From: Balneolaceae bacterium
GTDB taxonomy: Bacteria; Bacteroidota; Rhodothermia; Balneolales; Balneolaceae
Reading direction: 5' to 3'
DNA length: 64,000 nucleotides
Assembly: GCA_034521495.1 (NCBI GenBank)
Contig: JAXHMK010000014.1
Span: 1 to 64,000, forward strand
Shown here: in pieces, positions 43,034-56,062 of the stretch
How positions within the stretch are numbered: the first letter of the stretch is position 1
Layout: each line of letters begins with the position of its first letter
Program-made: the position numbers and the translations under genes
The notes under the pieces: generated by a model
Seen by the model: the letters and a program-made list of their open reading frames with translations, nothing else
What the model was told of the DNA's origin: nothing
The model's database searches: none

Positions 43034-45433
43034 TCAATCCAAATGAACAACCGTACAACCCGACCCACCACTATCCCATGGAGCAATTTCAAACGATTTC
43101 ACCTCAGAGCGTTCCTCCAGGTGTTCATGAACCAGCTTGTGTAGAATACCTTCGCCCTTGCCGTGAATAATTTCTACCTGGCTCATTCCGCGGGTGAGAG
43201 CATTATCCAGGTATTTTGTGAGTTCTTTTATCGCCTCATCACCGCGTTTTCCGCGCAGGTCCAGGGAGGGACTCACGGAAAGATCGGTATCCTTGGAAAT
43301 GGAATAAGATCGTGTTTTCATCGATTTCTCTTTTTTCGGAGGGCGTGTTTTCACCAGCTTGTTCAGGTTCGATTTGATCTTCATACCGTTCACCAAAACC
43401 GTAGCTTTCTTTCCGGAGAGTTCAACCAGTTCGCCGGATGTATTGCTCTCTTCAATGAGTACATGATCGCCCACCTTCGGCTTCTCCTTGCTTCGATAAG
43501 GTTTTTCCTCCTGCTCAACCTCTTCCTTGTCTGAGGCGATCTCTTTCTTGGCATCAAGAATATCGCGGCGGGCTTCGGTAATTTTTTCTTTGTTTTCGCG
43601 CCCCTCGCTCACCACTTTTTCAACAGCCTTCTCAATTCGTTGATTAGCCCCCTTCATGATCTCTTCAGCATCTTTATACGCTTTTTCGATAATTTTCTTC
43701 CGCTTATTTTTGATGTTCTTCTGATCCTTCTCGTAGTCTTTCTCTCTTTTTTCAACTGACCTGAGCCGCTTTTCATACTCATGTTTCAACTGCTCAAACT
43801 CCTGCATATTCTCCTCTAAACTGATCAGTAGATCGCCCATTGAATCTCGTTTTTCACCCAAAAGTTCACGGGCTTTGTTCATCACTTCTTTAGGCAGATT
43901 CAGGCGGTCGGCAATCTCAAACGCATAACTGCTCCCGGGATATCCTTTTTTGAATCGATAGGTGGGAGTGAGGTTCTCCTGGTTAAACTCCATCGCTCCG
44001 TTCACCACTTTTTCGTGCTCATGTGCAAACACTTTGAGTGATCCGTGATGCGTGGTAACAATCACGCGAGCTCCCATTTCAATCACTTTTTCAACAAACG
44101 CCTGGAAAAGCGCACCCCCTTCCTCTGGATCGGTCCCGGAGCCAGCCTCATCAATCAAAACAAGTGAGTTCTTTTTGAGTTTTTGCAGCGTGTTTCTCAT
44201 CCACTGTAAGCGTGAAGAAAACGTACTCAGATCATTTTCGATCGATTGGTCATCCCCGATATCAATATAAATACCATTCAAGACCGGGATTTCAGAATCC
44301 GGCTGAACCGGGATCGGGAAACCACTTTGTAGCATTAAATTCAGCATTCCAACCGTACGCATCGCCACAGATTTTCCACCGGCATTGGGTCCGGTAATTA
44401 CCAGGGCCAGCTCATCCGGGTTCAGTTCAAGATTGAGAGGAACGACAGGTTCGGGCTCCTTCAGCGACAGATTTTTAAGCACCAGGTTGGGATTCAACGC
44501 ATCTATTAAATCCAGGTGTCCGTCTGAGCTTAACTCAGGGATACTTCCGTCAAGATTCAGCCCCAGTTTTACACGTGCATGAATAGCATCGAACTGCGCA
44601 ATAATGGGGATATTTCTCTCAAGTGTATCTGAATATTTTCCAACTTCAGCTGTTAATTCCCGAAGAATTCGTTCAATTTCCCGCTGCTCTTCCGCTTCAA
44701 GTTGCCGGATCTCGTTGTTGATCTGAAGTGCTTCAACCGGTTCGAGATAGATGGTTTGGCCGGTGGAGGAGACGTCATGGATAAAGCCATCAACCTTACG
44801 CTTAAATTCCGCCTGGATAGGGATTACCATGCGGCCGCTGCGAATAGTTGGGCCTTCATCGGATGTCATTCCTTTTTTTGAGACTCGCCGCATCACCGAA
44901 TGAATGGTATCTCTGAGCCGGTTTCGTTCCCGGTTCAGGCGACCGCGAATCTGTTTCAGCTTACTGCTGGCATCATCCCGCAGATCTCCCTTATCGGTCA
45001 CCACTTTCCGGATCGCCTTTTCCACCGGTTGGTGATTGACAAGCCGATCAGAAATACTTTTCAGATTTTCAAGATCCAACTCGTGGTCTTTAAAGAAATT
45101 CTTGATCGTTCTGCCGAGCCGGGCATTTTCGAGCACTACCAGGAAATCCTCAAGTGGCAGCGTATTTTCTTTGATCCGGCTGGCTTTCAAAATTTCAGTC
45201 GTATCCTCAATCACAGAAAGCGGATGATTTGAACTGCTTTGAAGAATTTTCATCCATTCAGAAGCATATCCAAGAATTTCAGAAACCCTTTCCGGATCTG
45301 TGGCCGGACTTAAATTTTTTAGAAACTCTTTTCCATAAGGGGTATAAGTATGCTGTAAAGCGGACTCCAAAACCGCTTCAAATCCAAGTTTTTGGTAAGC
45401 TTTTTTCGTATCAATACTTGTTTCTGAATCCAT
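43034..45433 (-). CDS. mutS2: MutS2-type ATPase/endonuclease
   Basis: 799 residues: the MutS2 core (no mismatch-binding domain), Walker A GPNAGGKS and Walker B LVLIDEAGSGTDPEEG around residues 345-440, a coiled segment (about 530-640), and an Smr nuclease domain at the C-terminus with LDLRGKRGDEA and IHGKGEGIL. MutS2 rescues collided ribosomes or suppresses recombination, depending on the lineage. The final about 75 residues are the Smr module; a separate Smr protein is encoded at 17116-17388. Confidence 0.96.
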   Translation of the reverse strand: MDSETSIDTKKAYQKLGFEAVLESALQHTYTPYGKEFLKNLSPATDPERVSEILGYASEWMKILQSSSNHPLSVIEDTTEILKASRIKENTLPLEDFLVVLENARLGRTIKNFFKDHELDLENLKSISDRLVNHQPVEKAIRKVVTDKGDLRDDASSKLKQIRGRLNRERNRLRDTIHSVMRRVSKKGMTSDEGPTIRSGRMVIPIQAEFKRKVDGFIHDVSSTGQTIYLEPVEALQINNEIRQLEAEEQREIERILRELTAEVGKYSDTLERNIPIIAQFDAIHARVKLGLNLDGSIPELSSDGHLDLIDALNPNLVLKNLSLKEPEPVVPLNLELNPDELALVITGPNAGGKSVAMRTVGMLNLMLQSGFPIPVQPDSEIPVLNGIYIDIGDDQSIENDLSTFSSRLQWMRNTLQKLKKNSLVLIDEAGSGTDPEEGGALFQAFVEKVIEMGARVIVTTHHGSLKVFAHEHEKVVNGAMEFNQENLTPTYRFKKGYPGSSYAFEIADRLNLPKEVMNKARELLGEKRDSMGDLLISLEENMQEFEQLKHEYEKRLRSVEKREKDYEKDQKNIKNKRKKIIEKAYKDAEEIMKGANQRIEKAVEKVVSEGRENKEKITEARRDILDAKKEIASDKEEVEQEEKPYRSKEKPKVGDHVLIEESNTSGELVELSGKKATVLVNGMKIKSNLNKLVKTRPPKKEKSMKTRSYSISKDTDLSVSPSLDLRGKRGDEAIKELTKYLDNALTRGMSQVEIIHGKGEGILHKLVHEHLEERSEVKSFEIAPWDSGGSGCTVVHLD

Positions 45434-49281: not shown

Positions 49282-49502
49282 CTGTTTCTCTCCATTTATA
49301 GGTTTCCTTTCTATAAAAAGTACTCATAATAATTTCAGTTTTAATGAAGATTCATAATCGACAGAGGTTATTTTTTTGTTCCGGCGTAATTCTATAAAAA
49401 AAACTGTAACAAATCGGTTGTTCGGGCATCATATATACAGAAGCGACAATCAATGTAGCTTTTGAGTTTTAAATAAAGATCAGCAACTGAAGTTTTATTG
49501 AT

Positions 49503-50084
49503 ATGAAAACTTGCGTATTGTTTCCTAATGCATTCTCATACAACTATATAGATGGATCTGTAGCTCATTCCATGGATGTTCCCACATCTCAGGAGCTTCA
49601 TTTGAATCCACATGATTTAAATGAAACGTTCCCTTCGCGAAGGAATACGAGGAGAAATTTGTCTCTCTTTTCTCCCAATGCCAGAAACAGATCAAAAGAA
49701 AAACCACGCCTTCTGCACGTGGAAGACAGTGCTCAAATTCGTCTTCTCGTTTCTATATTTCTAAAAAATGAATTTGAAATAGTGAGTGCTGAAAACGGTA
49801 AAAAAGCTATCAAAGAAGCTGAAAAGAGCGAGTATGACCTGATTTTGATGGATATTAATTTAGGAAGCGGAATTGATGGATTTGAAACAGCAAAAAAGAT
49901 CAGAAAACTCAAGAAATATAATGATACACCCATTATCGCTCTAACCACGAACGATTACGATCATGTTCGTGATAGATGTATATCCTCAAGAATGAACGCC
50001 TATATTCAAAAGCCGTTTGATAAGGCATACCTGTTAGGAATCATTCAGGAGATAAATAAGCACCAGGCCCAAAAAACAAGTTAA
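49503..50084 (+). CDS. Single-domain response regulator with N-terminal extension
   Basis: 193 residues. The first about 65 are poorly ordered and basic; the receiver spans about 68-190 with LLHVEDS, phospho-acceptor in LILMDINLG, T in IIALTTN and K in YIQKPFD. There is no output domain, so it is a CheY-like shuttle or allosteric partner. The next gene begins 13 bases after its stop, so it is co-transcribed with the membrane TPR gene. Confidence 0.9.
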   Translation: MKTCVLFPNAFSYNYIDGSVAHSMDVPTSQELHLNPHDLNETFPSRRNTRRNLSLFSPNARNRSKEKPRLLHVEDSAQIRLLVSIFLKNEFEIVSAENGKKAIKEAEKSEYDLILMDINLGSGIDGFETAKKIRKLKKYNDTPIIALTTNDYDHVRDRCISSRMNAYIQKPFDKAYLLGIIQEINKHQAQKTS

Positions 50085-50096
50085 AATTTTACTGAA

Positions 50097-50879
50097 ATGA
50101 CCAGCCATCTAACACCTATAAGAGAAAAAATCCACGATTTTGTGGATGGAAATCTCTCTGCCGAAGAAGTCGATCAACTATGGGCGCAGCTAATTGCTCG
50201 TCCGGATGATCTCGATTATTTACAAACACTCGTTACACTGAAAAAAATGGGAGCAGAAGGCAAGTTCGATCATCTTTATGATTCAGAACCTAACGTTATT
50301 CCGATGCCGAAAGCCGAAGAGAGTTCTGCTCCAACATTATATGAAAGATTCAAACCGTATCTTGTTGCTGCCACGGTTATTATTATCGGTTTTGCTGTAC
50401 TTTTTAATCTTATGACCGGTGTAGAGCAGCCACAAAACGCCGAACCAATTTCTATGATAGAATATGAAATTGAACGGTCAGCAGATAATCAAACCATGTT
50501 GGAAAATTATCTGCAGGAAGCGGTAAGCCTGGCTACAAGCGGTAATCTTGAGGCCGCATATGCACAAATCGATGAAGCCTCATCCCTTGAATTAACAACT
50601 GAGCAGAGTATTGACCTTAAAATGGTTAAAGGAGCTATTCAATATAATTCCAAAAATTATTCAGAAGCTTTGCAAACCTTTCAGTCAATTAACAGCACTG
50701 ATGGAATAGGATTGATGAATCTTGAGAAGGGAACCTGGTACTTAGCTAATACTCAATTGCAACTTGGTATGAGGGAAAAAGCAATTGAGAGTATGGAGAG
50801 AGTTATAGAACTCGACGGATCATTCAGCCGAGTAGCTAAAAACAAATTGGAATCACTAAGACAACCTCCCGCCAGTTAA
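50097..50879 (+). CDS. Membrane protein with anti-sigma-like N-terminus and periplasmic TPR domain
   Basis: 260 residues. Residues about 8-45 resemble an anti-sigma factor N-terminus (FVDGNLSAEEVDQLWAQL) without a zinc-binding Cys/His set. One membrane span at 88-107 (YLVAATVIIIGFAVLFNLM). Residues 125-255 form TPR-like helices (LATSGNLEAAYAQIDEA; NSKNYSEALQTF). Topology suggests cytoplasm-to-periplasm signalling. It is coupled to the receiver gene upstream and converges on the CHAT gene with a 4-base overlap; the ECF-like sigma factor at 55487 is a candidate partner (inference). Confidence 0.75.
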   Translation: MTSHLTPIREKIHDFVDGNLSAEEVDQLWAQLIARPDDLDYLQTLVTLKKMGAEGKFDHLYDSEPNVIPMPKAEESSAPTLYERFKPYLVAATVIIIGFAVLFNLMTGVEQPQNAEPISMIEYEIERSADNQTMLENYLQEAVSLATSGNLEAAYAQIDEASSLELTTEQSIDLKMVKGAIQYNSKNYSEALQTFQSINSTDGIGLMNLEKGTWYLANTQLQLGMREKAIESMERVIELDGSFSRVAKNKLESLRQPPAS

Positions 50880-53029
50880 AAAAAGATCCAGGATCTAATC
50901 AGGGTTTTTCTTTGATATGCAGCAATTGCAATGAAGCCAAGCCCTGATATCAATAAGCCCGACAAAAGTAACTGGATCAAATATTTATAGTTATCTACCG
51001 CAGGGCTAATGTTGCCGTACATGATAAAAGCTCCCCACAGGTAGGGATCGCTATTAGAGTTATTGAGATAATGTATACGTGCCTCCCTGAGTGCCTCAGC
51101 TTTGTTATTTCCCTGATTAAGTGAAGCATAAAATTCGGATGAAATTTCAGAAGCGGTTTGATCCCGTATCGGCCAAAGGTTTATAGATAAACTTTGAGCT
51201 CCTGCATACGCAAACGCTCTGGAAAAACCCAGGATCCCGGATCCTTTCAAATATCCTCCGGAACCGGATTCGCAGGAACTCAAAAAGATCAAATCAGCAT
51301 TGAGGTTTAAGTCGAACAACTCATAGGCATGAACAATGCCGTCATTTTTATTGTCAACGCTGTCTTCTCCATTTACACTGTTGCCAGAATACATATAAAG
51401 AGAAGAAAAAAGCGGATTTTCATCATCCACTTTACTGTGTGTTGCCAGGTGGATGATTTTTGCTTTGCCGGCAACATTTCTAAAATTGCTTTCCGTACTG
51501 CTGTCGTTTATAAAAAATTGTTTATTTCTAAACTTGTCTAATTGAGCTGAACTGCTTGTAACTTCCTGTGGACTGAAGGGGAGGTCCGGTAAATTGGGGT
51601 GGCCGGCCTCCGAAAAATTACTCACACCAAAGCCTGCCAAATCAAAGCTGAAATCAGTACGTGCTGACGTATTTAAAAGATCAGATAATGTGTTGAGATA
51701 ACTAACACTGTAGTTTTCTATTAAATATGTGGATGAACCATAACTATTCTTTGAATTTGCGGGGTTTACAGGCAGAATTTCTATAGGAATTCTGTAAAAT
51801 ATTCCATCCGGGATCATATAGATATGTTCAATTCCAGAGGGGATATTATCAGCAAAATAGTTTCTGTAAACATCATGTAACAGGTTCAGATCTGTTGAAG
51901 CATGCCCAAAACTTTGAACCGCACGTTCAAGCAGCTCCATCTGCTCATCTGCGGGATAGACTTTCATCTCTATACGTTGAGTAGTGATGAAGTATTGAAA
52001 TATTTGATCTTCAAATACAGAAAAATAGATGATCATCTGATCTGAATTCAGTTCATTCCTTGCTTGAGGCAGCATCTCTTCAAAATCACTGGTCGAGTAG
52101 TTTGGAAATGCTTGGTTCAGCAAATTGTTCCGCTCCGCCTTCGCACTTGCTAACTGATTTCCGAGATATATTTTTTGCTCTTCCGTTGCATTTGCGTATC
52201 TGCTTCTCAGATCTTCAATTCTGTTGCTCAGGTTATGATCTCTGATCAATTCTTCCTCGCTTAATATCTGTGATTTTAAAAGCGGATTGTTATAAAATCC
52301 AGTTCTTGAAAGGTTTCTGAGCCGTCCGTTTACAGCAATTGCATCTTCGAAATTCCCAAGTTGGCGTAGCAGTTCTGTGTGTAGCTGAAACGCTTCCGAA
52401 AACTCCTCATCCATTCTCATATGCCCGGTCTGCATGTCTGCGCTCTCTTGCAGCCAATCAAATATTTCTTCAATTGTAGTTGAAGAAAATGCAAGAGCTT
52501 CTTCCAATTCTCCTCGATTACTAAGGAGTTTGATCTTTACATTTTTTCCAAGCACTTCCAGATTGAAGGGGATTTCTTCCAGGTCGCTGTCGGATATAGA
52601 TTGCATCAGAGTATCGGCTTCACTTAATCGTTGATTATCCGTAAGCATATTACTGTAGCGAACAATTGCCATAGAATAGTTTCGGTTATCCTCACGGGAT
52701 TCACTGATGGCAATTGCCTCTTTAAAATATTTCTCGGAGTCTCTTGGATTATTCAACTCATGATATGTCTCACCCAGCTCGATGTAGCTGTTGAAATGTC
52801 GTTGATAGTTATTTGAGTTTTCAGAAAGTTCAAGAGCATCATAAAAGTGATCTAACGCCAAATTGGGTAAATTTTCAGTTTCCCGTTTATGAACGCCTAA
52901 TGAGAGTAAAACTCCGGCCGTTTCCTCAGGTAAGTTATATTTTTGTGAGATTTCAAGTGCCTGATTAAGATAATTTAACGCCAGACTTGTTTCGTTTTGT
53001 CTTCGGTAGAAAACATATAGATTGCGCAA
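50876..53029 (-). CDS. TPR-CHAT protease (C-terminal part of a 5'-decayed gene)
   Basis: 717 residues from an apparent TTG. TPR-like repeats fill about 1-250, a coiled stretch comes near 230-300 (RDHNLSNRIEDLRSRYAN) and a CHAT caspase-like domain spans about 300-665: catalytic His H531 in HLATHSK and Cys C586 in LSSCESG. One span near 685-708 precedes a basic tail. No signal peptide remains, because the preceding sequence (53030-54063) is disrupted by an in-frame TAA and frameshifts. Relatives carry a signal peptide, which would put CHAT in the periplasm. It is downstream of four small lipoprotein genes on the same strand. Confidence 0.8.
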   Translation of the reverse strand: MRNLYVFYRRQNETSLALNYLNQALEISQKYNLPEETAGVLLSLGVHKRETENLPNLALDHFYDALELSENSNNYQRHFNSYIELGETYHELNNPRDSEKYFKEAIAISESREDNRNYSMAIVRYSNMLTDNQRLSEADTLMQSISDSDLEEIPFNLEVLGKNVKIKLLSNRGELEEALAFSSTTIEEIFDWLQESADMQTGHMRMDEEFSEAFQLHTELLRQLGNFEDAIAVNGRLRNLSRTGFYNNPLLKSQILSEEELIRDHNLSNRIEDLRSRYANATEEQKIYLGNQLASAKAERNNLLNQAFPNYSTSDFEEMLPQARNELNSDQMIIYFSVFEDQIFQYFITTQRIEMKVYPADEQMELLERAVQSFGHASTDLNLLHDVYRNYFADNIPSGIEHIYMIPDGIFYRIPIEILPVNPANSKNSYGSSTYLIENYSVSYLNTLSDLLNTSARTDFSFDLAGFGVSNFSEAGHPNLPDLPFSPQEVTSSSAQLDKFRNKQFFINDSSTESNFRNVAGKAKIIHLATHSKVDDENPLFSSLYMYSGNSVNGEDSVDNKNDGIVHAYELFDLNLNADLIFLSSCESGSGGYLKGSGILGFSRAFAYAGAQSLSINLWPIRDQTASEISSEFYASLNQGNNKAEALREARIHYLNNSNSDPYLWGAFIMYGNISPAVDNYKYLIQLLLSGLLISGLGFIAIAAYQRKTLIRSWIFF

Positions 53030-54063
53030 GATATTTAACTGTTGATCAAAATTTTCTTCTTCCTGAGCAATTTCAAACGCTTCAAGTTGAAACTGTACAT
53101 ACTGATCAAATTGTCCTGAATTTAGATAACTTACTGCAAGATTATTGAAGAGTACGGATCTATACCTGGGATCTAAATTTTCAATATCTTGTTAGTAAAC
53201 ATTTTCAAATTGATTTAGTGCTAGCATTGACATTACCGATCCGGAATAGGGTTAGAGCATAACTCATTTTTACTGTTAGTAATCTTTCTTCAAAACCAAG
53301 TCTTTGAGCAAGTGGTAATAATATTTCGTCATAAATTTTTAAAGCGTCAGAGTAATATCCTGTTGCTCTTGCTGAAAAAGCAATTCTATTAAATAAGTTG
53401 AATGTAAAAGTAGAATCTAGGAAATGGATTTGACTCAATTAAATATTTCCCAACTTCAAATACTTTATCAAAATCATCAAGTTTATTATAACCTAAAACA
53501 AGAGCTTGTGCTTTTAAACTGGCTTTTAGAGGTGTATTCTTCATAATCTTACTAGTGCTTAATGTTTCAAACCAATGATCTAAGCAAGTTTTCGTGCTTG
53601 ATTTTCAGATTCTCATGGAATGTGAAGCACCATGAAAAGGTATAAATCATCTGATGCGGAAAAGTCTCGGATTGAATAAATCATCTGATCACTATATTTC
53701 CATTGAGATATTAATTGTTCTATTAACATCTGATCATATTCATTCTCTTGATTTGAAAGTCTGTAAATGATTTCAATTCTCTTTTCACTTACTGCTTCAT
53801 GAAGAGCAAAGTTTAAATAAGCTATTTTATTAGTAGTCTTATAAAAGTTCATAATAATTCTCACTGAGCCTATTATATAAAGTAGAATTAGTATCTGTTG
53901 TATCAAATTGTGTTTGTTCTTGAACATTTAGCCAATTATTGTATATCGTTCTCGTCTCTTCATGCTTGTAGTTTGTAGCTGAATAAATATTTTGAATGGA
54001 TAAAGCGATATTGATATAAATATGAAGTAAGTACAAATAAATATTCGTCGGTACATAATTCAT
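53030..54063 (-). pseudogene. Decayed 5' part of the TPR-CHAT gene
   Basis: Fragments in different frames read as one TPR-rich chain: MNYVPTNIYLYLL with KHEETRTIYNNWLN; NKIAYLNFALHEA; an IESNP-to-FLDSTF junction; and DALKIYDEILLPLAQRLGF, then LDPRYRSVLFNNLAVSYLNS, joining the CHAT frame. Seen lesions: an extra T near 53422 (in IESNP/FLDS), an extra A near 53222, and an in-frame TAA at 53192-53194. At least two further breaks lie around 53600-53850. A long intact protein is no longer encoded. Confidence 0.7.
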
Positions 54064-54134
54064 AAAGAAATGTTTGTATTCTAAACTTTAAAATGTACTA
54101 AATCTTCTTGAATTTATTCTGGATTCAGGATGAT

Positions 54135-54362
54135 TCAGTTTTCATATGTCATTAGAAGGTTCACGTCAATCATCTCTTCCTGGTCTCCGCCGTGGAAATA
54201 ACCGGGAGCTTCAGCAGATTGCACGGGTGATTCGGCCGATACAGCAGATGCATCCGGGGCGTTGGTCTCAGAGAGGTTGGCCTCGGTAATACCGGCGCAT
54301 CCGGCAAACAGGGCGATGATGACAGTGGCAGTAAGAAGTCGGAGGTTGTGTAAAGTTTTCAT
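54135..54362 (-). CDS. Small lipoprotein, tandem copy 4 (frameshifted C-terminus)
   Basis: 75 residues. Lipoprotein signal with C22 (LFAGC), then a short acidic mature part containing GYFHGGDQEEMID. Compared with copies 1-3 the end differs: a one-base deletion after GAC-GT replaces the usual EPS-x-D continuation with NLLMTYEN. It is the copy nearest the TPR-CHAT gene and may be decaying. No family recognised. Confidence 0.75.
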   Translation of the reverse strand: MKTLHNLRLLTATVIIALFAGCAGITEANLSETNAPDASAVSAESPVQSAEAPGYFHGGDQEEMIDVNLLMTYEN

Positions 54363-54375
54363 AATGAGATGTATG

Positions 54376-54642
54376 TTAGTTTAGAAATTGTTTGAATGGT
54401 TGAGCGGTTAATTTCGGTTTCATGTGGTCATCGGAAGGTTCAAGGTCGATCATCTCTTCCTGGTCTCCGCCGTGGAAATAACCGGGAGCTTCAGCAGATT
54501 GCACAGGTGATTCGGCCGATACAGCAGATGCATCCGGGGCGTTGGTCTCAGAGAGGTTGGCCTCGGTAATACCGGCGCATCCGGCAAACAGGGCGATGAT
54601 GACAGTGGCAGTAAGAAGTCGGAGGTTGTGTAAAGTTTTCAT
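54376..54642 (-). CDS. Small lipoprotein, tandem copy 3 (full length)
   Basis: 88 residues: MKTLHNLRLLTATVIIALFA then G-C22, a Ser/Ala/Pro linker with NLSET, and GYFHGGDQEEMIDLEPSDDH, then the tail LTAQPFKQFLN. Signal, linker and the HGGDQEE segment are nearly identical in all four units, which repeat at 280, 280 and 277 bases. Mature chain of about 65 acidic residues. No family recognised. Confidence 0.8.
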   Translation of the reverse strand: MKTLHNLRLLTATVIIALFAGCAGITEANLSETNAPDASAVSAESPVQSAEAPGYFHGGDQEEMIDLEPSDDHMKPKLTAQPFKQFLN

Positions 54643-54688
54643 AATGAGATGTATGTTAGTTTAGAAATTGTTTGAATGGTTGAGCGGG

Positions 54689-54922
54689 TTATTCCCGGTT
54701 TCTGTGGTCGTCGGAAGGTTCAAGGTCGATCATCTCTTCCTGGTCTCCGCCGTGGAAATAACCGGGAGCTTCAGCAGATTGCACAGGTGATTCGGCCGAT
54801 ACAGCAGATGCATCCGGGGCGTTGGTCTCAGAGAGGTTGGCCTCGGTAATACCGGCGCATCCGGCAAACAGGGCGATGATGACAGTGGCAGTAAGAAGTC
54901 GGAGGTTGTGTAAAGTTTTCAT
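54689..54922 (-). CDS. Small lipoprotein, tandem copy 2 (early stop)
   Basis: 77 residues; identical to copy 3 up to EPSDDH, then RNRE and a stop (GAA-TAA in place of GAA-TTA), removing the tail LTAQPFKQFLN. So at least two of the four copies have altered C-termini, although the core is kept. Confidence 0.78.
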   Translation of the reverse strand: MKTLHNLRLLTATVIIALFAGCAGITEANLSETNAPDASAVSAESPVQSAEAPGYFHGGDQEEMIDLEPSDDHRNRE

Positions 54923-54935
54923 AATGAGATGTATG

Positions 54936-55199
54936 TTAGTTTAGAAATTGTTTGAATGGTTGAGCGGTTAATTCTCGGTTTCTGTAGTCGTTGGAAGGTC
55001 CAACGTCAATCATTTCTTCCTGGTCGCCGCCGTGGAAATAGCCGGGAGCTTCCTCAGCTTGAACAGTTGATTCGACTGATACGGCAGGTGCATCCGGTGC
55101 GGTCTCAGAGAGGTTGGCCTCGGTAATACCGGCGCATCCGGCAAACAGGGCGATGATGACAGTGGCAGTAAGAAGTCGGAGGTTGTGTAAAGTTTTCAT
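54936..55199 (-). CDS. Small lipoprotein, tandem copy 1 (first in the array, most diverged)
   Basis: 87 residues, first unit after the divergent promoter region. Same signal (C22) and GYFHGGDQEEMID, but a diverged linker (SETAPDAPAVSVEST) and one residue shorter; tail NRELTAQPFKQFLN intact. The divergence suggests this is the ancestral unit and the other three are recent duplicates. Confidence 0.8.
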   Translation of the reverse strand: MKTLHNLRLLTATVIIALFAGCAGITEANLSETAPDAPAVSVESTVQAEEAPGYFHGGDQEEMIDVGPSNDYRNRELTAQPFKQFLN

Positions 55200-55486
55200 A
55201 ATGTTGTGTGTTTTGTTTAGTGGTAATAAAAATTATTTTGGTTTTTTGCCATTCTAAGGCTAAAATTTTGTTGTACTATACATTAGTAGGATGCACAAAC
55301 AAGCAGTTTGTTACAGAATAAATATAGAAATTAGATTATATTTTGAATTAGTTTTTATATGATAATTATATACAATAAATATTAATTATTTTTAAATATA
55401 TTCATATACATTGACTTTCTGCAATTCAATTTTTATAAACAAATTTTTTTCTGTAAGGCAATAAATATCAGATAGTTATCGCTTTT
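55200..55486. other. Divergent promoter region of the sigma factor and lipoprotein array
   Basis: 287 AT-rich bases between two divergent units; must hold both promoters. No obvious operator palindrome. Confidence 0.5.
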
Positions 55487-56062
55487 TTGGAACAAGATAA
55501 AATTTCGAGTAAAGAATTTTACGAGCTCATTACTTCGGCTGAAACGTCTGAAGTAAATCGTATTTCATATATATTTATAAAGAGAATGGCTTTATATCTC
55601 AGTACCGTAATGAAAGCAGATGAAGAAACTGCAAAAGATTGTGCACAGCAGGCATTCGAAAAAGTTTATAAAAAAATTGTAAATGAGACGATTTCTGAAA
55701 TAAATGATGTTTTTGGATACCTGATTCGATCAGCCCGAAATGAGTACCTGATGATTTTGAGGAAAGATAAGGTAGAAGTACCCAGCGAATACTCATACTT
55801 TTCGGGAGTTATCGGTTCGTCGGGTAATGAAATTGAGGGATCGATCTATTCAGAGGAAAAAGAAAAACTCCTTGAGTACTGTATCAAAAAATTAAAGAAA
55901 GGAAAGCGAACTTTTTTTCTGCAGGTTTTAAAATTCATTAACGAGGATGACAAAGAAGTGGCCAAGAAGCTCAATATGAGTCATGGCAATTTTCGAACAA
56001 AAAAATCAAGAGTGGTAGACAAGTTACGGGAGTGTGTAAAAAATACTACTAAAGATGAGTGA
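55487..56062 (+). CDS. ECF-like sigma-70 factor
   Basis: 191 residues from an apparent TTG (MEQDKISSKEF). Region 2 lies around 22-85 (ADEETAKDCAQQAFEKVYKK, then NDVFGYLIRSARNEYLM) and region 4 at 135-185 (NEDDKEVAKKLNMSHGNFR, ending VVDKLRECV). It lacks regions 1 and 3. It is divergent from the lipoprotein-CHAT unit, which it may control; the membrane TPR protein at 50097 is a candidate anti-sigma factor (inference). Confidence 0.85.
   Translation: MEQDKISSKEFYELITSAETSEVNRISYIFIKRMALYLSTVMKADEETAKDCAQQAFEKVYKKIVNETISEINDVFGYLIRSARNEYLMILRKDKVEVPSEYSYFSGVIGSSGNEIEGSIYSEEKEKLLEYCIKKLKKGKRTFFLQVLKFINEDDKEVAKKLNMSHGNFRTKKSRVVDKLRECVKNTTKDE

Follow-up and report, generated by a model that had tools for sequence, protein, structure and literature searches.

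The DdvS/DdvA pair of Myxococcus xanthus and Craspase, also called CASP (Csx29, Csx30 and CASP-sigma), a type III-E system of the clustered regularly interspaced short palindromic repeats (CRISPR), are the described systems closest to the locus presented here. By the title of its structural entries (PDB codes 8rot and 8rw5), DdvA is a transmembrane anti-sigma factor; its partner DdvS is a sigma factor of the extracytoplasmic function (ECF) type and, according to PMC4374960, is active once DdvA has been inactivated. PMC10028731 describes, for Craspase, an ECF sigma factor and its inhibitor, which is cut by the protease, and, for the RseA/DegS/sigma-E system of Escherichia coli, a membrane anti-sigma factor cut by an envelope-stress protease. 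The present analysis deals with a set of genes in a stretch of 64,000 nucleotides from a Balneolaceae bacterium (assembly GCA_034521495.1, contig JAXHMK010000014.1, positions 1 to 64,000), hereafter the window. The set consists of a gene for an ECF-type sigma factor, a divergent array of small lipoprotein genes, a gene for a CHAT-domain protease with tetratricopeptide repeats (TPR) and, converging on the latter, a gene for a transmembrane TPR protein with the features of an anti-sigma factor (Table 1). On balance, we lean slightly towards the view that these genes form an envelope-signalling sigma circuit of the Balneolales, with the CHAT protein as a periplasmic switch and the lipoproteins as reporters of the state of the envelope.

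The relationship to Craspase put forward in the initial annotation finds support in the fold of the protease, but a kinship with the CRISPR system is not supported. The structure modelled from the intact CHAT protein of Rhodohalobacter sulfatireducens (predicted local distance difference test score, pLDDT, 84.7) finds its best match in the Csx29 chains, which display the same TPR-CHAT fold (Z 26.1, root-mean-square deviation, rmsd, 8.3 over 557 residues), and also aligns with separase (Z 23.3, rmsd 5.1 over 497 residues) and with the solved fold of DdvA, in the latter case across both the TPR and the CHAT parts (Z 21.2, rmsd 10.2 over 606 residues, model residues 205-1006). Membership in Craspase was considered and rejected, no Cas7-11/RAMP gene occurring in the genome: the RAMP family PF03787 gave 0 matches in the host genome (4.57 Mb in 22 contigs, 97.4% complete). 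Unlike Craspase, moreover, the Balneolales set combines a CHAT protein placed outside the cytoplasm by hydropathy with a membrane inhibitor and an added lipoprotein array. DdvA is the closer functional parallel. Its entry names the molecule as a CHAT domain-containing protein, whose catalytic positions read ATH and CE in a weak alignment (E 0.08). In DdvA the anti-sigma, transmembrane, TPR and CHAT parts belong to one chain, whereas here they are shared out between two separate genes in each of the 81 genomes that carry both on a single contig; the natural union of anti-sigma, TPR and CHAT in DdvA strongly hints at a joint action of the two Balneolales genes. To our knowledge, no lipoprotein array accompanies DdvS/DdvA, although no search was directed at one. 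The likeness to RseA/DegS/sigma-E is one of idea only, since the protease is here a caspase-like CHAT protein with TPRs, whereas DegS is a PDZ serine protease. No paper on this gene set was among those listed by the literature searches.

The gene order described in the initial annotation from the window alone is fixed across the Balneolales; the check in related genomes that the annotation had proposed thus came out in favour of co-occurrence. In about 50 genomes, the surroundings of a homologue of the sigma factor or of the CHAT protein were compared over as much as 20 kb, and the order is that of an ECF sigma factor, a divergent array of one to six small lipoproteins, the TPR-CHAT gene and the convergent transmembrane/TPR gene. 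The family CHAT gene, strong or partial, occurs in 93 of the 128 Balneolales genomes, G052 and G057 having been dropped from the count as only generic CHATs passed 1e-60 in them. It is convergent with the anti-sigma-like gene in 81/81 genomes having both on one contig and divergent from the sigma gene in 50/50, the latter being linked cases by construction since the sigma list was restricted to sigmas located on CHAT contigs. In 12 of the 93 genomes no anti-sigma gene occurs on the CHAT contig among the matches listed, and 20 CHAT places without a listed sigma start less than 840 nt from the contig start, some inside the CHAT gene itself, a pattern that assembly breaks in the repeats would be expected to give. 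Recurrent throughout the order, this arrangement is far beyond chance. A gene for a receiver (REC) protein occurs at 13 of the examined loci, that of the window included. Besides, tandem pairs of CHAT genes occur within one locus at L074 and L246, and Balneolales-type CHAT genes occur in records titled PVC group, Chitinophagaceae and Mollicutes (L252, L285 and L295), bins that may be mislabelled.

A promoter-like motif links the sigma gene to the other members of the set. It consists of TGTAACA followed, after about 15 bases, by ACTCTTG or CATCCTA, and lies upstream of the first lipoprotein gene, often twice. Of 46 array upstreams, one was dropped as short (L072) and one as masked (L086); in the remaining 44 loci, a single fixed pattern found the motif within 350 nt before the first lipoprotein in 41, the three others being L064, L070, which has the motif further upstream, and L093. 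As to the anti-sigma gene, 22 of 43 loci have the motif within 350 nt and a further 12 have it within 1100 nt, each of these 12 being one of the 13 REC-bearing loci, which brings the total to 34/44; in the window, its position ahead of the REC gene was checked by coordinates. By comparison, the motif was found in 0/50 upstreams of the sigma gene, 1/42 of the CHAT gene and 11/323 of other genes at the loci, REC genes included, and first-order shuffling puts the expected number of occurrences at 0.05 to 0.28, with 0.15 or less for the upstreams of the array, the anti-sigma gene, the sigma gene and the CHAT gene.

Genome-wide counts point in the same direction. The ACTCTTR form occurs at 103 sites in 15/15 sigma-bearing genomes (reversed-pattern control, 3) and, in a second set, at 45 sites in 11/11 (control, 1), so that none of the 26 genomes tested that carry the sigma lacks the ACTC form. 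Conversely, it has 0 sites (control, 3) in all 11 hand-chosen genomes, two Fodinibius included, that are devoid of a close sigma copy (best sigma match E 9.9e-16 or weaker, none beside a family CHAT), nine of which also lack a family CHAT and several of which are small. Among these controls, the absence in G092, G095, G082 and G085 says little because their kin are of the CATC or AATCC type, and the strongest are the two Fodinibius genomes (G011, G017), which belong to the same genus as ACTC-type genomes. The CATC form (TGTAACA-N14-16-CATCMT) occurs at 56 sites in 11/11 genomes with the other sigma type (control, 3). Its shortest pattern gave a weak result in the genome of the window, with 13 sites, some within open reading frames (ORFs), against 3 in the reversed controls.

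The sigma factor itself, called ECF-like and divergent from the lipoprotein genes in the initial annotation, can be assigned to the ECF sigma factors, with regions 2 and 4 only. The Pfam matches of the window's protein lie below the cut-off (Sigma70_r2 E 0.0022, r4 E 0.13), and the family profile matches the ECF sigma factors SigE (PDB code 2q1z, E 2e-7) and SigW (E 0.001). In the sigma tree, which carries a long-branch warning, an 11-member clade spanning two families (members from genus g1 and from family f2; support 100/99) has a CATC-type -10 half in 11/11 members, and the other clade comprises 33 CTC, 4 CATC and 2 unlabelled rows according to the regular expression. Two sigmas of genus g1 (G042 and G044) sit in this other clade; the motif of the former is of the ACTC type, and that of the latter (L093), unlabelled by the pattern, yet reads TTCTCTTG. 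The candidate -10 half thus tracks the sigma lineage, on one side only. A simpler rule, by which sigmas at least 40% identical to that of the window would have a CATC-type -10 half, was broken by L324 and L326 and dropped. Since the upstream counts, the genome-wide counts and the lineage match combine, the sigma factor likely reads the TGTAACA-N15-(ACTC/CATC) motif, and would thereby drive both the lipoprotein array and its own anti-sigma gene.

Other genes may belong to the same regulon. In a sample of 60 more ACTCTTR sites, drawn from 12 genomes, which does not cover every site and of which one (L190) corresponds to the anti-sigma gene itself, 50 are followed by an ORF of at least 55 codons starting within 400 nt downstream and 10 by none, and no site falls inside a same-strand ORF of at least 110 codons. 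Depending on the site, the recurrent first genes encode REC-type proteins (8 sites), short helix-turn-helix proteins (7), pilin-like proteins (4), HU-like proteins (4), HPt proteins (3) and a secreted protein with an inhibitor-I9 domain (3), the domains being assigned from one representative per type. The short protein behind the motif at L161, L178, L195 and L343, which represent four genomes, starts with MGQQQLLLVILVTIIVGIATVVAINTF and was named pilin-like by eye; its single scanned representative has no Pfam match.

The transmembrane/TPR protein, in which the initial annotation had seen the holder of the sigma factor, is very likely its anti-sigma factor, because both the shared promoter motif and the occurrence of paralogues directly behind ECF sigma genes point to this function. 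The product of the gene starting at 50097 has one transmembrane segment at residues 89-107, and its model (pLDDT 84.7) consists of N-terminal helices 8-16, 22-34 and 36-53, a membrane helix 81-107 and TPR helices 134-255. This predicted succession of an N-terminal helical domain, a single transmembrane helix and a sensor domain has the layout of a class I-like membrane anti-sigma factor, with the TPR domain presumably outside the cytoplasm. Homologues sharing 22-25% identity stand directly behind an ECF sigma gene at L117, in the genome of the window, and at L096 and L116. The model zf-HC2, which we take to be the Pfam model for anti-sigma-type zinc fingers, weakly matches 8 of 53 family members (E up to 0.5, best 7.3e-4), and the family alignment contains no cysteine-based zinc motif. 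The second pair in this genome (L117:7489-8958, G000:C6), made of an ECF sigma gene followed by the homologue, is a sister pair devoid of a lipoprotein array; a ruvB-like gene, recognized by eye, comes next after the pairs of L096 and L116, and one gene further, past a gene on the opposite strand, in L117.

The small proteins are predicted bacterial lipoproteins, having a signal peptide with a lipobox cysteine. As the initial annotation had noticed, four tandem ORFs occur in the window (54135-55199, reverse strand, spaced by 280, 280 and 277 nt), all with the HGGDQEE stretch and with 86-100% identity over the aligned stretches. Throughout the loci, the copies are nearly or wholly identical within the genome in most arrays, and this identity, together with the differences between genomes, is a mark of concerted evolution. 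In 53 lipoproteins, taken one per locus, the lipobox cysteine is present in 53, the following alanine in 52 and the proline of the tail in 52; the count of cysteines holds partly by construction because the rows were chosen by a lipobox-like pattern, which does not apply to the tail. The cysteine follows a hydrophobic stretch and is preceded by G, A or S, the tail reads roughly F-x2-G-x4-(P/I)-I-x2-(K/R)-P, and the mature protein comprises 38-66 residues (median 46), with a net negative charge in 53/53. With the motif ahead of the array, the lipoproteins at least look like a sigma-driven output.

The TPR-CHAT protease gene was correctly recognized on the reverse strand by the initial annotation, which however missed that it is not intact, being broken in its N-terminal third. 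The match to residues 270-1050 of an intact relative lies in a single frame (78% identity, one TAA near the start), that to residues of about 31-267 is split between two other frames, and no credible match exists in the window for the first 30 residues; the gene is whole in the relatives G066 (1056 codons) and G068 (1050 codons). The CHAT gene of the window is thus probably broken, or produces a short protein deprived of its N-terminus. Family membership is indicated by the PF12770 match and by the histidine and cysteine, invariant in 41/41 family rows once the two generic CHATs L103 and L116 are set aside, and the nearest named relatives include Rhodohalobacter, Fodinibius, Aliifodinibius and Balneola. 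Hydropathy predicts a C-terminal transmembrane helix in every family row except L101 and L102. When the CHAT part was compared with plasmids by tblastn, the 31 records retrieved contained nothing but distant CHAT genes, each below 60% identity. The sole other CHAT gene found in the genome of the window lies on a different contig (L103:9348-12398, G000:C4), with 1016 open codons and a hydrophobic N-terminus.

Taken as a circuit, these elements would work as follows. The transmembrane/TPR anti-sigma factor would use its cytoplasmic N-terminus to keep the ECF sigma factor at the inner membrane. Once freed, the sigma factor would transcribe the lipoprotein array, reading towards the CHAT gene, as well as the anti-sigma gene or the REC/anti-sigma operon, which would close a negative loop, plus further genes; for these steps the genomic counts provide support. 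The TPR-CHAT protein is probably exported and fixed by its C-terminal transmembrane anchor, so that, judging from hydropathy, its TPR and CHAT domains would face the TPR domain of the anti-sigma factor in the periplasm. There it could act as the switch, either by making the first cut in the anti-sigma factor or by being kept idle through contact with it; the parallels with DdvA, Craspase and DegS make such a role plausible, and either the anti-sigma factor or the lipoproteins may be cleaved by the CHAT domain. The lipid-anchored lipoproteins, with their acidic linker and conserved tail, would report the state of the envelope, the tail possibly docking in a TPR groove. A bolder version, to be taken as tentative and rather doubtful, is that of a lipoprotein-trafficking sensor, in which a periplasmic caspase-like protease reads a small envelope lipoprotein and passes its state to the ECF sigma factor via the anti-sigma factor, the ligand being made in several identical copies and encoded by a concertedly evolving tandem array under the control of the same sigma.

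Several observations weigh against this circuit. No motif occurs within 1100 nt of the anti-sigma gene in 10 of the 44 loci, among which two are sigma-less and one stands at a contig end. The loose CATC form has 13 sites (reversed control, 6) in the 11 sigma-less genomes and is, for this reason, a weaker test; restricted to N15 and a final G, it gave 41 sites against 0 in the same list, a narrowing chosen post hoc. The fold search with the anti-sigma model did not reveal an anti-sigma domain, the matches listed being without exception TPR or other helical proteins. By eye, the CHAT proteins have hydrophobic N-termini, which exceed the transmembrane threshold in part of the rows only. The tail of the lipoproteins is not a free C-terminal ligand, since further residues follow it in the genus of the window. 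In the genome of the window the CHAT gene is broken while the sigma and anti-sigma genes, the motifs and the array persist, which makes the window a poor place for testing the protease step. Finally, on long contigs of Fodinibius roseus (L275/L322) and Fodinibius sediminis (L280/L323), the lipoprotein, CHAT and transmembrane/TPR genes occur without an adjacent sigma gene, and the array has no motif; part of the set must therefore be useful without the sigma factor. In both genomes, a 719-codon gene precedes the anti-sigma gene on the same strand.

The last of these facts are also those on which the strongest alternative is built, namely that CHAT and lipoproteins are output only, an explanation which we regard as unlikely, though it is the best of the rivals. 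The anti-sigma factor would then control the sigma factor through another protease or ligand, and the array would supply a highly expressed small envelope lipoprotein, comparable in size to Lpp, that the CHAT protein trims or recycles. The CHAT gene lies in the same direction as the array and behind its sigma-type promoter, which would suit an output, array and CHAT gene persist without the sigma in the two Fodinibius, and the loss of an intact CHAT gene leaves the rest in place. Against it stands DdvA, which carries TPR and CHAT and is itself an anti-sigma factor, together with the wider relatives of the protease: in 12 of 19 non-Balneolales CHAT loci, the sigma and/or anti-sigma profiles find matches close to the CHAT gene (E up to 0.1), some of which may be generic because the anti-sigma profile contains TPRs. 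At L309 (Ignavibacteria), a sigma-like gene, recognized by eye only, an anti-sigma-like gene and a CHAT gene succeed one another on one strand; at L308 and L315 a sigma/anti-sigma pair faces the CHAT gene, the partner in L308 having zf-HC2 over the cut-off. More generally, records of Bacteroidetes, Ignavibacteria and KSB1 show TPR-CHAT genes with sigma-like (ECF) and/or anti-sigma-like neighbours in several arrangements (L305, L307, L308, L309, L314, L315).

Peptide signalling, in which the CHAT protein would cut the lipoproteins and the released tail would bind the periplasmic TPR of the anti-sigma factor, in the manner of NprR or PlcR, appears quite improbable. Small secreted proteins that occur in near-identical copies and share a conserved tail would fit such a scheme, as would the anti-sigma TPR model, close to the peptide-binding TPRs of NprR/NprX (Z 15.2), PlcR/PapR (Z 14.9) and HOP/MEEVD (Z 14.9); but these matches are tied with many other TPRs, which makes the resemblance generic, no cleavage site is evident, and the tail varies little within genera (by eye), in contrast to strain-specific pheromones. 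A Craspase-like system for phage defence or cell suicide, with CHAT as a death or alarm protease released on infection, is very improbable despite the fold shared with Csx29, since PADLOC returned only a generic TPR model for the module proteins, the order of the locus is fixed through the taxon and the genome has no RAMP gene.

Table 1. Features of the candidate sigma circuit in the window (positions in the 64,000-nucleotide stretch).
Feature	Position	Strand	Basis or remark
Promoter-like motif TGTAACA-N15-CATCAT, upstream of the REC/anti-sigma operon	49405..49432	+	CATC to REC start, 72 nt
Receiver (REC) protein, gene 1 of the REC/anti-sigma operon	49503..50084	+	PF00072 E 5.9e-22
Putative membrane anti-sigma factor (residues 1-61 helical, single transmembrane helix at about 81-107, TPR about 130-260)	50097..50879	+	TPR_2 E 3.4e-7, model
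Intact 3' portion of the TPR-CHAT protease gene (717 codons), with the His and Cys retained and a C-terminal transmembrane helix	50876..53029	-	PF12770 E 3.7e-53
5' remnant of the CHAT gene, scattered across other frames (broken gene)	53030..54063	-	Whole in relatives
Lipoprotein copy 4, altered tail	54135..54362	-	ORF
Lipoprotein copy 3	54376..54642	-	ORF
Lipoprotein copy 2	54689..54922	-	ORF
Lipoprotein copy 1, sigma-adjacent, most diverged copy	54936..55199	-	ORF
Promoter-like motif TGTAACA-N15-CATCCT, upstream of the lipoprotein array	55288..55315	-	Motif pattern
ECF-type sigma factor, divergent from the lipoprotein array	55487..56062	+	Family profile, weak Pfam

As Table 1 indicates, the receiver and transmembrane/TPR genes converge on the CHAT gene in the way first reported for the window. 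Elsewhere in the window (43037-45433), a 799-residue protein shows a weak PADLOC match to AbiLi (E 1.4e-5) over about 50 residues only.

According to PMC7406223, only 6% of the ECF sigma factors of Bacteroidetes have a class I anti-sigma factor in their neighbourhood, and anti-sigma genes located beyond intervening genes, as is the case here, may partly explain this low proportion. If the envelope circuit proposed for the Balneolales is true, a bacterial relative of the caspases would start an ordinary chromosomal envelope response rather than a defence. It would also suggest that TPR-CHAT proteins, ECF sigma factors and anti-sigma factors have long been partners, with Craspase and DdvA as two offshoots. 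With the promoter motif, the candidate regulon and the arrays of identical lipoproteins as candidate signals, a role of CHAT proteins outside CRISPR becomes testable.

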